Source of the DNA: Candidatus Omnitrophota bacterium
GTDB taxonomy: Bacteria > Omnitrophota > Gorgyraeia > DTHP01
Direction: 5' to 3'
DNA length: 39,558 nucleotides
Assembly (NCBI GenBank): GCA_023819145.1
Contig: JAMWCW010000012.1
Span: 1-39,558, forward strand
The notes under the pieces are model-generated. The model searched no databases. It saw only the letters and a list, made by a program, of their open reading frames with translations, and had not been told where the DNA came from. Below, in pieces: positions 2,634 to 38,445 of this stretch. A program made the translations under genes and the position numbers. How positions within the stretch are numbered: the stretch's first letter is position 1; each line of letters starts with the position of its first letter.

Positions 2634-3920
2634 CTACCTGTCAAGGTATTTGGATAGCGCCTCTAAGTTCCTTGCAGTTGCCCCCCGCGCTTTTAAAACC
2701 ACTTCTTTAGCAAGTAAACCTATTCTTTCTCTTTCAGCCGGTGCATCAAGCAAATTAATAATGCAGTCTTTAAATTCCTTTTTATTTTCGCAAACAAGAA
2801 CAGCATTTTTTTCCTGAAAAACTTTAAAAATATCTAAAAAGTTGAAAAAGTATTTTCCGGAAATAACCGCTTTAGAGAAAACCGCAGGTTCAATAATATT
2901 GTGCCCTCCTTTCTTAGTTAAACTTCCTCCCACAAAAACAATGTCTGCTATCATATAGTAATTTCGCAACTGACCAACGGTATCAAGAATAAAAACCGTT
3001 AATTGGTAATTGGTAACTGGCAACTGATAATTTAAAGAAGATAATCTTATGGAGGAAAACCTCTTTTTAATAACCAATTTTTCTATTTCCGTGCTTCTTT
3101 CTGGATGGCGGGGAGCAAGGACTAATCGCAAATCAGGATAATCCAGGAGCAGTTCCTTATAAACCGCTAAAATAATTTTTTCTTCTCCTTTATGCGTACT
3201 TCCCGCCACCAGAAGCTTTTCTTTTGTTCCTATGCCTAATTTCCGTCTTAAATCAGTATAATCTTTTTTTGAATCCGCATAATCTGTGTCGTCAAATTTC
3301 ATATTTCCCGTAACGGAAACTTTTTCTTGATTTACCCCTAAATCAATAAATCTCTTTTTATCCTTCTGGGATTGCGCTAAAACCAAACTAATTCTTCTTA
3401 AAATCGGTTTCAAGAGAAACTTCACCAATCTATACCGTCTAAAAGCTTTGTCGGAAATCCTTGCATTAACTAATACCATCGGGATTTTGAGCATATAACT
3501 TTGAAAAATAAAATTGGGCCAGAGTTCTGTCTCTAAAACAACCAAGAGTGAAGGTTTAATGGCTCGAAAAGTTTTTCTCACTATAAAGCTGAAATCAAGG
3601 GGCGCATAGATTACTATCTCGTCGGGCAAAGCAAATTTTCTGGCTAAAACGTTTCCCGTTTTAGTAACCGTGGAGAAAACAATTTTATAATCCGCATAAC
3701 TCTCCCGCAAAAGTTTCCAGAGAAACCTGCTTGCATTCACTTCTCCAACGCTTACCGCGTGAATCCAAACAACTTTTTTCCCTTTTATTTTTTGGAAAAA
3801 ATTTTTAGGGAAAATCCCCAAACGTTGAAGAAAATCCCGATGATACTTTCTCTTGTAGATTAAGTAGGTAAGATAAAAAAAAGAAAGAAAGGCAAAAACT
3901 ATATCATAAAAAATATACAT
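2634..3920 (-). CDS. waaA: 3-deoxy-D-manno-octulosonic acid (Kdo) transferase
   Basis: WaaA/KdtA adds Kdo to the lipid A precursor at the inner membrane, an early step in LPS core assembly. The 428-residue protein has an N-terminal membrane anchor (about 5-20), the GT-B N-domain motifs VWIHAVSVGEV (about 50-60), ETELWPNF and ARISDKAFRRY, and the C-domain region APRHPER, DTVGQL, FVGGSL and GGHNIIEPA typical of the family. Its presence argues for a diderm with lipid A. Oddity: residues about 297-309 (NYQLPVT then NYQLTV) are encoded by five copies of the 7-bp repeat found between genes elsewhere in the window (2998-3032). They fall in a loop that varies in the family, so the enzyme probably still works. 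It lies 44 bp downstream of xerC in the same direction. Confidence 0.93.
   Translation of the reverse strand: MYIFYDIVFAFLSFFYLTYLIYKRKYHRDFLQRLGIFPKNFFQKIKGKKVVWIHAVSVGEVNASRFLWKLLRESYADYKIVFSTVTKTGNVLARKFALPDEIVIYAPLDFSFIVRKTFRAIKPSLLVVLETELWPNFIFQSYMLKIPMVLVNARISDKAFRRYRLVKFLLKPILRRISLVLAQSQKDKKRFIDLGVNQEKVSVTGNMKFDDTDYADSKKDYTDLRRKLGIGTKEKLLVAGSTHKGEEKIILAVYKELLLDYPDLRLVLAPRHPERSTEIEKLVIKKRFSSIRLSSLNYQLPVTNYQLTVFILDTVGQLRNYYMIADIVFVGGSLTKKGGHNIIEPAVFSKAVISGKYFFNFLDIFKVFQEKNAVLVCENKKEFKDCIINLLDAPAERERIGLLAKEVVLKARGATARNLEALSKYLDR
2998..3032 (-). repeat. 7-bp tandem repeat inside kdtA
   Basis: Five consecutive 7-bp units (GTTAATT, GGTAATT, GGTAACT, GGCAACT, GATAATT) lie in frame within the Kdo transferase gene. 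Three units make 21 bp, hence a seven-residue protein period (NYQLPVT/NYQLTV). The unit is the same family as the intergenic GTAATCN arrays at 19-39 kb. Confidence 0.8.
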
Positions 3921-19317: not shown

Positions 19318-19582
19318 TAAAGTTTAAAGCGCAAAACTAAGATAACGAATATAACGAATTTAACGAAATTAACGAACACAACGAACCAAACAGGGATCCG
19401 TAAACCGTAATCGGTAACCCGTAATAAGAAGCGTAAAGTACAAAGCGCAAAGCGCAAAACGGAAAACGAGCAAAACGAATAGAACGAACTAAACGAAAAT
19501 AACGAATAGAACGAATTCAACGAACATAACGAAATTAACGAAACTAACGAACACAACGAACTAAACGAATATAACAAACATT
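19318..19582 (+). repeat. compound 9-bp/7-bp repeat array
   Basis: The gap opens with AAGCGCAAA-like sequence, then AACGAANNN units in strict 9-bp steps. A block of 7-bp units (CCGTAAA, CCGTAAT, CGGTAAC, CCGTAAT) follows, then a second AAGCGTAAAG block and about a dozen more AACGAANNN units up to the pilin ATG. Bases 19393-19461 match 20192-20260 at all but two of 69 positions. No Shine-Dalgarno is left before the next gene. The unlikely minus-strand reading frame here is a translation of the array (Phe-Val-x)n. Confidence 0.9.
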
Positions 19583-20092: not shown

Positions 20093-20337
20093 TGATAATT
20101 TAGGGATTCGTAATCCGTAAATCGTAATTCGTAATTACAACTAAACGAACTAAACGAATTTAACTAAATTAACGAACAAAACAAACTAAACGGGATCCGT
20201 AAACCGTAATCGGTAATCCGTAATAAGAAGCGTAAAGTACAAAGCGCAAAGCACAAAACGAAAATAACGAACCCAACAAATTTAACGAAATTAACGAACT
20301 AAACGTTTTACCAATTACTGATTTACCGATTACGAAC
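20093..20337 (+). repeat. compound 7-bp/9-bp repeat array
   Basis: It opens with 7-bp units in the GTAATCN sense (ATTCGTAATCCGTAAATCG...), continues with AACGAANNN units, the 69-bp copy at 20192-20260 and more AACGAANNN units. It closes with units in the opposite sense (CCAATTACTGATTTACCGATTACG) that abut the next ATG. The opening and closing 7-bp blocks are mutually complementary and could pair across the gap. Confidence 0.88.
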
Positions 20338-21182: not shown

Positions 21183-21240
21183 AAGTTAAACGAATCAAAC
21201 GAACACAACGAACTAAACGAACACAACGAACATAACTGAC
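21183..21240 (+). repeat. 9-bp repeat array
   Basis: Six AACGAANNN units in 9-bp register (variable triplets TCA, CAC, CTA, CAC, CAT) fill the gap between the GspJ-like gene and the MntA-like gene. They read in the direction of both genes. Confidence 0.85.
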
Positions 21241-21903: not shown

Positions 21904-22012
21904 TTACGCCAGTAACGAATACAACGAATATAACGAACAAAACGAGATTAACGAATAAAACGAACCTAACGAACAAAACGAAAATAACGAAATTAACAAA
22001 CTAAACGAGAAT
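21904..22012 (+). repeat. 9-bp repeat array
   Basis: About twelve AACGAANNN units in 9-bp steps run from behind hepT to near the Shine-Dalgarno of the next gene, with triplets such as TAC, TAT, CAA and CCT. The orientation matches both flanking genes. Confidence 0.88.
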
Positions 22013-28845: not shown

Positions 28846-29010
28846 AAACTTAAAGCGCAAAACGAATAAAACGAAAATAACGAAATCAACGAAATCAACG
28901 AACAAAACGAAGATAACGAATAGAACGAATTCAACGAACAAAACGAGCCAAACGAGATTAACGAATTTAACGAAAATAACGAACTAAACGAACAAAACGA
29001 ACTAAATCCG
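28846..29010 (+). repeat. long 9-bp repeat array
   Basis: After AAAGCGCAAA about sixteen AACGAANNN units run in 9-bp register between pilO and pilP. Some units are altered (AACGAGCCA, AACGAGATT). The orientation matches the genes. It is one of the longest uninterrupted arrays here. Confidence 0.9.
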
Positions 29011-29502: not shown

Positions 29503-29597
29503 CACGGGATTCGTAATCCGTAACCCGTAAAGCGTAACTTTTAATTCTGATTACTGATTACCAATTACTGATTACCGATTACGGATGTACCAATTAC
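29503..29597 (+). repeat. 7-bp repeat array with inverted arms
   Basis: 7-bp units run first as GTAATCN (ATTCGTAATCCGTAACCCGT) and then as GATTACN (GATTACTGATTACCAATT...). The first and last blocks are complementary at about 14 of 17 positions, so the leader of the secretin gene can fold into a long hairpin ending about 20 bp before AGGAGGGGG. Confidence 0.82.
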
Positions 29598-29622
29598 TGA
29601 GTTTAAAGAAAGGAGGGGGATA

Positions 29623-31261: not shown

Positions 31262-31397
31262 GAAGCGTAAAAGCGAACCAAACGAATAAAACGAACACAA
31301 CGGACACTAGCGCACCAGAACACCAGTGAAAAACGGGGATTCGTAATTCGGATTACTGATTACCGATTACCGATTACTAATTACGGATTACGGATTC
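31262..31397 (+). repeat. compound 9-bp/7-bp array
   Basis: A short, decaying 9-bp block (AACGAATAA, AACGAACAC, AACGGACAC, TAGCGCACC) is followed by a 7-bp block in the GATTACN sense (GATTACT, GATTACC, GATTACC, GATTACT...) ending near TCTAGAATTC. It lies after the secretin and before the kinase promoter. Confidence 0.82.
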
Positions 31398-33456: not shown

Positions 33457-33888
33457 CTACTTCTTCACTCCGCGTTCAACGGTTATTTTTCCTAAGAGTT
33501 TTTCTAAGGCAGGGAACATTTCTTGGGGCTTAAAGGGTTTGGTGAACCAAGCGTCCACACCTACTTCTTTTGCCGGTTCTTCGCCCAACTTATCGGAACG
33601 GGCGCTAAACATCACCAAGGGGATATTGCGGAAGCGTTTGTCAAATTTAATAAAGCGTGCCACTTTATAGCCATTCATCTCGGGAAGCATTAAATCCAGA
33701 ATAATTAAGTCTGCAGGCGCCTCTCGTAACTTCCTCAGCCCTTCATTACCCGAGAGGGCAAGCGTTACCTTATAGCCAGCCGACTCTAAGTGTTCTATGA
33801 GCTCCTTAACGGTTTCCGGCTCATCGTCAATGATTAAGATTTTCTTCTGCTCGGCAGTTTTCTCTTTTTCGGGCGTATCTTTTTTCAT
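33457..33888 (-). CDS. receiver-only response regulator
   Basis: The 143-residue protein is one receiver domain with a charged N-terminal extension (about 1-15). It has D21-D22 in IIDDEPET, phospho-Asp65 in ILDLMLPEMNG, Ser95 in place of the usual Thr (MFSAR) and Lys117 in WFTKPFKP. No output domain. It lies downstream of the GAF histidine kinase in the same direction, likely its partner, separated by a repeat array. Confidence 0.86.
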   Translation of the reverse strand: MKKDTPEKEKTAEQKKILIIDDEPETVKELIEHLESAGYKVTLALSGNEGLRKLREAPADLIILDLMLPEMNGYKVARFIKFDKRFRNIPLVMFSARSDKLGEEPAKEVGVDAWFTKPFKPQEMFPALEKLLGKITVERGVKK

Positions 33889-33898
33889 GGGTTAGTTA

Positions 33899-34000
33899 GG
33901 TTCGTTTAGTCCGTTGGGTTCGTTAATTTCGTTATATTTGTTGTGTTCGTTAATCTCGTTGAATTCGTTTTATTCGTTTTGTGCGCTTTACGCTTTTTAA
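33899..34000 (-). repeat. 9-bp repeat array
   Basis: On the minus strand, after AAGCGTAAAGCGCAC, about ten AACGAANNN units run between the kinase stop and the receiver start. Some are altered (AACAAATAT, AACGGACTA). The orientation is the coding strand. Confidence 0.87.
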
Positions 34001-35324: not shown

Positions 35325-35432
35325 ATCAGTAATTCGAAACCCCTTGTGTTCGTTGGGTTCGTTAGTTCGTTATATTCGTTAATTTCGCTTAATTCGTTAT
35401 TTTCGTTTTGCGCTTTGCGCTTTAAACTTTTA
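35325..35432 (-). repeat. compound 9-bp/7-bp array
   Basis: On the minus strand, AAAGCGCAAAGCGCAAA, then AACGAANNN units, and at the end 7-bp GATTACN units (GAATTACTGATTATGGATTACGG) that run into the kinase start. The block order is the same as in the plus-strand arrays. Confidence 0.87.
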
Positions 35433-35442
35433 GTTTTTTTCT

Positions 35443-38400
35443 CTACCTCGGTTTGGGTCCCCTGCCCCGTCCTTCTTCCTCATCTTCTTGTTGTCCAGGC
35501 GGAGTTCCGCCTTGTCCGGGCGGTGTCCCACCTTGGCCGGGTGGGGTACCTCCTTGTCCGGGTGGATCGCCGGGTTTTCCCGGGTCTTCAGGTTTTCCCG
35601 GTGGTTCATCGGGCTTCTTTCCCTGTCCGGGCGGCTCTCCGGGCTTCCCCGGGTCTTCGGGCTTTCCCGGTGGTTCTGGCGGTTTATTCCCCTGACCTTG
35701 AGCACCTCCTGTACCCGTGGGGGTCGTGGTAGTGGTTGTAGAACCTTCTGCTGTGTGCCCAGAATTGTTATATTCATCTAAAGCGTCTTTTAGACGCAAG
35801 AGATATTCTCTATCTAAAGATGGGTCAAGCAGAGCATTATCTGCCTCTTCAATCAACGCCAGAATATCATCGGTATAAGTAGCACCATTAGCAATGTTTA
35901 ATTTGGCGGCCAGAAGCTGGGCTCTAAGCATACTGTAGGGGTCTTTAGCATCTGCTCCCTGCAAAATCTCATAAGCTTGCTCTACTGTCTCAATACGCAC
36001 CCCTCCAAGATAAATCTCATTTTCACTAAGTATCCGCGCCAAGTGCTCCCGATGTGGGGCGGTCTTCCAATAGCCAATAGTCAATGTTCCTGTGCTCGGT
36101 GGTTGTGGTGGCTCGGGCGGTTCTGGTGGCTCCGGGGGTTCTGGGGGCTCTGGCGGTTCCGGCGGTTCTGGTGGCTCCGGCGGTTCCGGTGGCTCCGGCG
36201 GTTGCGGCGGTTCTGGAGGTTGCGGCGGTTCTGGAGGTTGCGGCGGCTGGGGTGGGCAGATACAAACTGGACACTCTGGTCCTTGGCAAGGCACAAGATT
36301 AATCACCCAAAACTTATTGTCGCCATTCACAAAATTAACCGCTAATTCCTGCTGTAAACCTTCGTTGTCCGAATCAAGAGCCATTATCCCGTTAATTTCG
36401 GGAACAATCTGCCCGGGGCAAACGGTTTCATCTTCACTAAAGTGCTCTCTTAGAACAAGCTCAATTTCTCCCGCCTGATTAAAAATATCGTAAATATTTA
36501 AGCGGTTCTCCAAAACTCTTCCACCTGTGCCATACTTTACTAAAGCCACCGCTAAATTATAATCAATTCCCGCATTGTCATTGCGTGAAAGATAAAGCGC
36601 CATATCCTTTACGCTGTAACCCTCTTCTACCAGTTTTTGCCTCAAGACCGTAATTGCCTGCAAAAGGGGAATCTTAATCCCCAAACTTTCGGCGATTCCC
36701 GGAATTAAACCTTCGGATTTAAGCCCATTTTCTAAACTCATTCTTGAACTAAACTCAATTGCCTCTTTTACTTTAACCGCCACACTACCTTCTACGGTAT
36801 TTTCCAGCTTTAGGGCATAACGCTTTCCTTCTTTATCTTGAGCAACCAAATAATAACCATCTTCAATACGTGTAAAACCTACAGGAGTAAACCCTTGAGG
36901 TAAGGGCGCGCTGATTGCTTTTACCACTTTTCGCGGAGAATTCTGGTCCAAATAGCCATGCACTTCTAAGAAATAACGCTCGCCTTCCTTAAAGACCACA
37001 AAGAGCTCTTCATTGCCCACAATTTCCTCATCGTAATTATCTATAAGGTCAAATTTACCCACCGCCACAATTTTGTCCGCAGGAGCAAATAAAGACAAAT
37101 CAATGATGGCATTAATCTGCCCATTGGGATAGAGAATTCCCGAATCAAGAATAGCAGGAATTTCGGTCTGATAAGCATCGGCGTCAAAAATTATTCCTCT
37201 CCACTTGGTCCAAACCGCTAATACCGCTTGCAATTCTTGAGATACAAGCGTTTGAGGAAATTCCGTAGTAGTCGCTACTGTTACGGGTGTTTCTTCCCTC
37301 TCAGCTACTACTGTTTGTGGCTGCCGAGTAATACTAAACCTTTTTCCTCCGCCAAAATCCGCGCTCTGGGCAACAATTTCGCCTCGCTCTTCCTTAATTG
37401 CCTTTACTTTAAAAATATATTCTCCACTTCCCAATTTTGAAACATCAAGTTGAAAGGCGCTTGCGCTAACTCTCCCGCAATAATCAGTAAGAGCAGTTTC
37501 CGTTCCATCAGGATTTATTTTAAATAATTGCCACAGATAAGCGCTTGCCTCAGGAATGCTTTCCCAGTTAAAATATTTTACATTGGGGTTAAGCAATTCT
37601 ATTAAGTCCGTGCGTGGAGAAACACCAACCGTAGCTAAGCTCCTCATTGCCGAAGTAGAAACCACTTGCTTCTCCACTGCTGGTGTCTGAACAACAACCG
37701 CAGGTGTTTGCGTTACCACTTGTTGTGGAGAAGGATTAACCACTGCTGTGCTTCCTGTAGGTTGTGTTGGATTTACTACGGGAAGCGATCTCTCTGGAGA
37801 GGTTAGGGGTTTTTCCACAGTGGAAGAGGCAGCAGTCACACTTCCCGCCTCTTTACGCATTTCGGCAAGTGCCTCATTAAAACTAATCGGGCGCGCTTGG
37901 GGAGTTGCCCGATTGATATACCAGCTTCCTCTTTGGGTATAAGCGAAAATCTCCTCCCATTTAATTCTTTTGGGTCCTATCTGTTCCAACTCCTCAATCA
38001 CCCGTTCGGTAAACCGCTGGCTTACCATCTGTAAAAACTCCCCATAAGTTCCTCTGGCACCTGAATAAATGGTTTCCCAACCAGTGTAAACTCCCGGTGC
38101 TTTTTCCAAAAATAAATCCAGTCCTTGAGTCCAACCACTTATTCCTATAATTAAGGTATTTAAAGCCTGATTCACAAACTCTAATACCTCTTTGCGTGTA
38201 TCAAAGTAATTTTCTGCAGCCTCTAACAGTGGTGTTTTTACTTTTTGTTCAAAATAAGATGCAGTGGCATCAAGAGAAGTTCCCCTTAGATTCCAATTTG
38301 CGGAAAGAATGCCGGAAATATCAAGGGTAGATTGCCGGGGACTAACCGGTAAAATCCCCGGACTTCCTGTTCCTAAAAAACCATCTGCATAAAGTTTACT

Positions 38401-38445
38401 TACTAACATCAAACTTAAAACCAGAAACAAAACTCCTTTCTTCAT
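35443..38445 (-). CDS. large exported Pro/Gly-rich protein
   Basis: No named family was recognised for the whole 1000-residue protein. It has a signal peptide (about 1-20, ending LYA). The N-terminal third is helical; a fibronectin/Ig-like segment lies around 295-375 (YFNWESIPEASAYLWQLF, in part), then a beta-rich middle. A Cys cluster (CQGPECPVCIC, about 716-728) precedes a Pro-Glu-Pro stalk of about 50 residues (about 731-783, PPEPP units). A GTLTIGYWKTAPHREH domain follows (about 787-905), reminiscent of the GYWK modules at the C-termini of surface proteins. The end (about 918-1000) is collagen-like, with G-x-P and GGTPPGQ tandem units. AGGAG precedes the ATG. Probably a secreted or surface structural protein, perhaps a client of the nearby secretion system. 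Confidence 0.6.
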   Translation of the reverse strand: MKKGVLFLVLSLMLVSKLYADGFLGTGSPGILPVSPRQSTLDISGILSANWNLRGTSLDATASYFEQKVKTPLLEAAENYFDTRKEVLEFVNQALNTLIIGISGWTQGLDLFLEKAPGVYTGWETIYSGARGTYGEFLQMVSQRFTERVIEELEQIGPKRIKWEEIFAYTQRGSWYINRATPQARPISFNEALAEMRKEAGSVTAASSTVEKPLTSPERSLPVVNPTQPTGSTAVVNPSPQQVVTQTPAVVVQTPAVEKQVVSTSAMRSLATVGVSPRTDLIELLNPNVKYFNWESIPEASAYLWQLFKINPDGTETALTDYCGRVSASAFQLDVSKLGSGEYIFKVKAIKEERGEIVAQSADFGGGKRFSITRQPQTVVAEREETPVTVATTTEFPQTLVSQELQAVLAVWTKWRGIIFDADAYQTEIPAILDSGILYPNGQINAIIDLSLFAPADKIVAVGKFDLIDNYDEEIVGNEELFVVFKEGERYFLEVHGYLDQNSPRKVVKAISAPLPQGFTPVGFTRIEDGYYLVAQDKEGKRYALKLENTVEGSVAVKVKEAIEFSSRMSLENGLKSEGLIPGIAESLGIKIPLLQAITVLRQKLVEEGYSVKDMALYLSRNDNAGIDYNLAVALVKYGTGGRVLENRLNIYDIFNQAGEIELVLREHFSEDETVCPGQIVPEINGIMALDSDNEGLQQELAVNFVNGDNKFWVINLVPCQGPECPVCICPPQPPQPPEPPQPPEPPQPPEPPEPPEPPEPPEPPEPPEPPEPPEPPEPPQPPSTGTLTIGYWKTAPHREHLARILSENEIYLGGVRIETVEQAYEILQGADAKDPYSMLRAQLLAAKLNIANGATYTDDILALIEEADNALLDPSLDREYLLRLKDALDEYNNSGHTAEGSTTTTTTPTGTGGAQGQGNKPPEPPGKPEDPGKPGEPPGQGKKPDEPPGKPEDPGKPGDPPGQGGTPPGQGGTPPGQGGTPPGQQEDEEEGRGRGPKPR

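Follow-up and report, generated by a model that had tools for sequence, protein, structure and literature searches.

In the Omnitrophota genome considered here, the run of 7-bp repeats inside the gene for the Kdo transferase WaaA, an enzyme of outer-membrane lipid synthesis, quite probably (roughly 0.7) belongs as a single copy to a dispersed family of short 7-bp tandem arrays peculiar to the genome, and is lodged in a surface loop that acts as a tolerant landing pad rather than as a functional element. Essential genes are usually said to avoid short tandem repeats. Across the class, however, units are common to unlinked genes within a genome and mostly different between genomes, a small set of loops has received arrays independently and repeatedly, unit number shifts by three units (21 bp) where frame must hold, and among coding arrays the frames are intact and a sense bias is present. 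The window, by which is meant the whole stretch of 39,558 nucleotides that was analysed, is positions 1-39558 of contig C12 in the source genome (G000; 1.51 Mb, 97% complete).

The WaaA Gene and Its In-Frame Array

The features of the window on which the argument turns are these:

2634..3920, minus strand: kdtA/waaA, Kdo (3-deoxy-D-manno-octulosonic acid) transferase, 428 aa; intact ORF, PF04413 E=1.2e-59
2998..3032, minus strand: in-frame 7-bp tandem array of the TAAYYRG family, inside kdtA/waaA in a loop of the C-terminal domain, encoding NYQLPVTNYQLTV
29547..29600, strand not assigned: intergenic TAAYYRG array, from the pattern search
31351..31396, strand not assigned: intergenic TAAYYRG array, from the pattern search

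The ORF at 2634-3920 has the PF04413 domain, the WaaA fold and the conserved motifs of the enzyme; sequence comparison with the WaaA of PDB entry 2xci gives 4.4e-31, and the closest named relatives are Omnitrophota MAGs. An initial annotation counted five 7-bp units in kdtA at 2998-3032. Four are clear, reading TATCAGT TGCCAGT TACCAAT TACCAAT on the minus strand (plus-strand units at 3000-3027: TAATTGG TAATTGG TAACTGG CAACTGA), but the fifth, TAACGGT on the minus strand, is degenerate and matches at only 4 of 7 bases. The heptapeptide that it reported, NYQLPVT followed by NYQLTV, agrees with the in-frame minus strand, AAT TAT CAG TTG CCA GTT ACC AAT TAC CAA TTA ACG GTT, which translates as N Y Q L P V T N Y Q L T V at residues ~297-309 of the 428-aa protein. 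The array is ~30 bp long, non-palindromic and without a hairpin. Its lag-7 score is 15, every other period from 5 to 12 scoring at most 7, and none of 5000 codon shuffles of the gene reached 15. Synonymous recoding of the same protein did so in 44 of 5000 trials (0.9%) because the heptapeptide itself holds part of the periodic signal, as expected if the peptide is itself a translated repeat.

Placing the loop on a structure, a check suggested with the annotation, was done with an AlphaFold model (mean pLDDT 93.9; best fold match Aquifex WaaA 2xci, E=1.3e-24). In this model residues 293-307 join strand 289-292 to strand 308-311 of the C-terminal domain, and the array thus lies in a low-confidence loop connecting two beta strands (pLDDT 80 for residues 291-300, 73 for 301-310). 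The sole other block of comparably low pLDDT is 211-220 (71), the interdomain linker, and two other genomes (L021, L138) carry WaaA arrays at residues 212-229, adjoining that linker. The two sites of WaaA arrays are therefore the two least confident segments of the model.

A Dispersed Family in the Source Genome

The pattern (TAAYYRG)x3, searched with up to 1 mismatch over the 1.51-Mb genome, gave 20 overlapping matches, or about 10 arrays, against 0 for the reversed pattern used as control; about half are intergenic and half lie in ORFs. In the window the intergenic stretches that fit the unit are 29547-29581 and 31356-31383. A narrower unit, TAAYTGR, was rejected as the family definition, since (TAAYTGR)x3 matches a single site in the genome, that in WaaA. 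In an exact search for TAAYYRG, 12 of 99 genomes were positive, and the source genome ranked highest. The proposal that an intergenic family expands into coding DNA is thus borne out: besides WaaA, TAAYYRG arrays lie in IleRS (ITNYGLP), in a ValRS on contig C17 (LTSNQQPVT), in a GT9-GT9 fusion and at the C-terminus of a prepilin peptidase, where they encode LLITGYWLLGK. In the fusion (L257, G000:C9, around 14000) the array marks the precise join between two fused GT9 (heptosyltransferase-like) domains and encodes LITDYRLLVS, as if it were a bridge merging two genes into one ORF. In the C17 ValRS array, the single position where TAA would fall in frame reads CAA.

The assembly has two ValRS genes (C17:9571-11769 and C2:31538-33664), 77% identical. 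Contig C17 may be a binning contaminant, because its ValRS is 100% identical to that at G001:C102. Contaminant or not, the pair is a good presence/absence comparison: the C2 copy is without the C17 array and carries a GAAATCC array at residues 512-521, where the C17 copy has none.

Other repeats of the window deserve mention in their own right. A 9-bp unit, AACGAANNN, its last bases variable, forms intergenic arrays mixed with 7-bp ATCCGTA/ATTCGTA units; the long arrays of the 9-bp unit are:

19342-19581, intergenic
20106-20305, intergenic
21188-21232, intergenic
21913-22012, intergenic
28859-29006, intergenic
33888-33982, intergenic
35358-35407, intergenic

A 1000-aa ORF at 35443-38445 on the minus strand contains internal 18-, 21- and 69-bp tandem repeats rich in Gly/Pro/Ser codons, and a tRNA-like fragment (GGGCCCATAGCTCAGATGGTTAGAGCAGCTGACTCAT) at about 200-260 on the minus strand seemingly lacks its 3' half.

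Recurrent Arrays in the WaaA Loop Across the Class

A class-wide sample of 172 scorable WaaA genes was drawn from the same class as the window (Omnitrophota), with codon shuffles as the null; matches in the low-complexity N-terminal membrane helix and in runs of N (L199, L055) were discarded. Pooled autocorrelation of the loop was set aside: it shows only a modest lag-7 peak (0.307 vs ~0.26) because most loops have no array, and per-gene local scores were adopted accordingly. By these, period-7 arrays appear in 24 of 173 raw rows (~23 without the N-run row), compared with 0 per shuffled gene. The loop that contains the array in the window holds a 7- or 8-bp array in 20 of 172 genes, the units mostly unrelated, where 1.5 would be expected if ~25 arrays were spread uniformly along the gene. 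On a tree built without the loop, presence and absence require 17 state changes, hence many gains and losses.

The diversity of units is considerable. Heptamers in the loop include GCCTCCA (G020), AAACCCA (G271), ACGAGCG (G240), AACCTTA (G201) and CGACCAT (G362), and 8-mers occur in four further genomes (G004, G315, G091, G380); one genus (g20) alone has GCCTCCA, AGCCGTC, AACCTTA and ACGAACG. In G210 the array is ACGAACG/ACGAATC across 55 bp, and G247, which has this array in common with it, differs in length by exactly 7 aa, or 21 bp. This pair bears upon the annotation's statement that frame is kept in every copy step, which does not stand: one 7-bp step by itself shifts the frame, which is preserved only when units change in multiples of three. 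The loop, which was correctly described as varying across the family and is hypervariable among aligned relatives, often keeps an unchanged length when it has an array (29-30 aa being the class mode), so that the event is replacement as much as insertion. No aligned WaaA relative has NYQLPVTNYQL, whose conservation in distant relatives was named beforehand as evidence that would count against a repeat origin. Arrays also occur in this loop in one Nitrospiraceae and one Planctomycetota genome. As a separate observation, hairpin-type repeats of other families fill the same loop at L021, L197 and L210 (peptides SFAKASEGRR, EIASSPSAPRND and SVRGKHPAPG).

Other Host Genes and Units Held in Common

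Similar recurrence is seen in other core enzymes. Among 47 ValRS sequences from 46 genomes, arrays fall in loops 220-243 (n=13), 453-464 (n=12) and 510-522 (n=3), with a null of 0; the first two are strong hot loops, and Thermus ValRS (1gax) has a gap where 220-243 falls. The closed Ca. Velamenicoccus genome also carries a ValRS array. IleRS has three arrays at one loop. In ~1.2 Mb of flanks, whose ORF calls were mechanical, the density of period-7 arrays per 10 kb is 3.98 between genes, 0.97 in WaaA and 0.21 in the interiors of other coding sequences; across the class, intergenic DNA is ~19 times as dense in arrays as coding interiors. Notable enrichment in these flanks is confined to periods 7 and 8, periods 5, 6 and 9-11 being rare. 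The genic copies lie in frame within conserved protein genes that stay open, and their peptides are mostly hydrophilic (25 of 35 comparable cases), with nothing else in common.

Units are characteristic of genomes. The pattern (AAGGGAC)3, with up to 2 mismatches, has 85 matches in G051, 45 in G010 and 0 in 14 other genomes, and (GCCTYCA)3, among 16 genomes, has 18 in G020, 5 in its congener G095, 2 each in G010 and G258 and 0 in 12. Units are more similar within genomes than between them (p<=0.002), and the resemblance among units from different loci of one genome exceeds that in a control with composition kept (p=0.004); sharing of period-8 units is not significant after composition control. 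Many arrays of one genome nevertheless carry different units, and some local birth of arrays must therefore also occur.

Of the AAGGGAC arrays sampled in G051, 20 of 22 lie inside ORFs, in hosts including PyrK, LpxK, FtsK, GT9, LeuRS, CysRS, TrpE, CdhD, L22 and L10 along with spermidine synthase-like, RnfC-like and CusB-like proteins and a 2-oxoacid:ferredoxin oxidoreductase. Nineteen of 20 coding arrays read in the KGQGTRD rather than the VPCPLSL sense (p=4e-5). A heptamer-hairpin-heptamer composite of ~60 bp, (AAGGGAC)n-CCCCATACGAAAATCGAAGATTTCGTACGGGG-CAGGC-(AAGGGAC)n, is 95-98% identical among the loops of WaaA and ValRS, a pair of sites in LeuRS and a CusB-like gene; such identity across unrelated genes shows that copying from gene to gene has taken place. 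Hairpins between arrays are found in G051 and G055, and composites with a hairpin belong to some genomes only. G051 has several other hairpin families besides a perfect 76-bp inverted repeat (GACCTAACTTTACTTGGCAAGGCTGGACCTCGGC...), identical at L378 2229-2304 and L372 3965-4040.

How Arrays May Arise and Persist

The explanation we favor is that families of 7-bp (less often 8-bp) units, each genome having its own unit or units and two arrays sometimes flanking a hairpin, would have spread to many loci in Omnitrophota. We infer that existing arrays serve as templates from which copies are written in the course of repair or replication. Template switching or microhomology-mediated repair would be the likeliest route, because the end of any array can prime on any other. 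Selection would remove arrays that land in a structured region or out of frame, that bring an in-frame stop or whose peptide is unfavorable, so that genic arrays would survive only in flexible surface loops, linkers and tails; a retained array would then drift, changing by multiples of three units. Among the loci examined, no array intermediate, target-site duplication or dedicated enzyme was identified. Most genomes compared are metagenome-assembled, but assembly error is an unlikely source of the arrays because they are shorter than reads.

Were the arrays of purely local origin, slipped-strand duplication of a random 7-mer in place, within a loop that tolerates everything, should account for all of them. 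The hypervariable, tolerant character of the array loops, the unrelated units in many arrays of one genome and the three-unit difference between G210 and G247 all fit slippage, but the units common to unlinked genes of one genome and the near-identical hairpin-containing composites in unrelated genes do not, and plain slippage leaves the strong preference for 7 over 5, 6, 9 and 10 unexplained. Already weakened by these observations, local origin alone is unlikely. It is decidedly improbable, likewise, that a Y1 (RAYT-like) transposase mobilizes REP/MITE-like hairpins of which the arrays are the flanks. Hairpins do separate arrays in G051 and G055, and Y1_Tnp genes are present in 47 of 57 genomes (5 in G000, 6 in G051), but most arrays, that of the window WaaA included, have no hairpin, and array-rich G010, with three arrays in ValRS and 93% completeness, has no Y1_Tnp match; the transposase was rejected as sole driver, being unnecessary.

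An adaptive origin, with the arrays serving as phase-variation (contingency) loci or as peptide modules whose function is selected for in these loops, is scarcely credible. The same loops are hit recurrently and heptamer steps would switch frame, but hosts include ValRS, LeuRS, CysRS, L10 and L22, where switching off would be lethal; phase variation in synthetases and ribosomal proteins is unlikely, and the peptides share nothing beyond their mostly hydrophilic character. Dispersal of a genome-specific family, with retention in tolerant loops, is thus the reading retained here.

Relation to Known Repeat Systems

Several known systems resemble parts of this picture. The TAACTGA direct repeats of Beggiatoaceae, Cyanobacteria and Bacteroidetes are 7-bp, dispersed and mostly intergenic (MacGregor 2015, PMC4679880); in the stop-free orientation some lie in ORFs (11), mainly at protein ends, and encode the heptapeptide LSVISYQ (PMC4679880). 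The Omnitrophota arrays are likewise 7-bp direct tandem units at many loci, mainly intergenic as in the STRR/TAACTGA type and sometimes translated, and the unit family of the window WaaA array (TAAYTGR) is almost identical. The WaaA units are, however, TAATTGG, TAACTGG and CAACTGA rather than TAACTGA itself, and where that system has one conserved unit and no recurrent site (PMC4679880), here the units are genome-specific and the arrays occupy loops away from the ends of essential enzymes, one and the same loop being used in many lineages.

Rickettsia palindromic elements (RPE; Ogata et al.) are palindromes of 105-146 bp, fused also into RNA genes (review PMC2229807). Like them, the present repeats are dispersed, short and fused in frame into conserved protein genes with function kept (PMC2229807); unlike them, the unit is a 7/8-bp tandem array with a hairpin only sometimes, and at ~30 bp for the window array and ~60 bp for composites it falls short of a 100-150-bp palindrome. 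In the Nostoc tRNA-Leu intron, 7-nt repeat motifs that differ between lineages have filled the P6b loop again and again (PMC4476775), which is similar in that one structural loop receives different heptamers per lineage, although that is an RNA loop with two motif classes and these are protein loops with many. GGGNATC heptamers of Xanthomonas and Nostoc form genome-wide arrays, typically of four units, that are under-represented in coding regions and read as G-quadruplexes (PMC4692102); Omnitrophota arrays are also dispersed genome-wide, but their units need no G-tract. Compared with REP/BIME elements with RAYT, which pair a hairpin unit with its cognate Y1 transposase, Y1_Tnp is present in G000 and G051 and absent in G010, and the window WaaA site has no hairpin. 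In the literature searched we found no paper on Omnitrophota repeats, nor the combination of genome-specific 7/8-mers with recurrence, throughout a class, in particular internal loops of essential proteins. Heptamer arrays and mobile palindromes that code for protein are each known already, which makes the present arrays a variation on them.

Implications

The whole class carries repeats in the same core-enzyme loops, with a unit of its own in each genome. A practical caution follows for predicted proteins, as peptides like RDKGQGT, NYQLPVT and SFAKASEG are likely translated DNA repeats and not functional motifs. More speculatively, and with considerable doubt, Omnitrophota and some neighbors may harbor an active process that works in a 7/8-bp register and writes the unit peculiar to a genome into chromosomal breaks wherever they occur, in the manner of telomere-type synthesis at internal sites or of template switching. 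Tolerant loops in essential proteins would thereby keep receiving new peptide sequence, and the process, if real, would be a general source of loop diversification. With a conserved gene, a fixed loop and a changing unit, the system is a natural recorder, and the old question of how bacterial heptamer arrays spread becomes directly testable.
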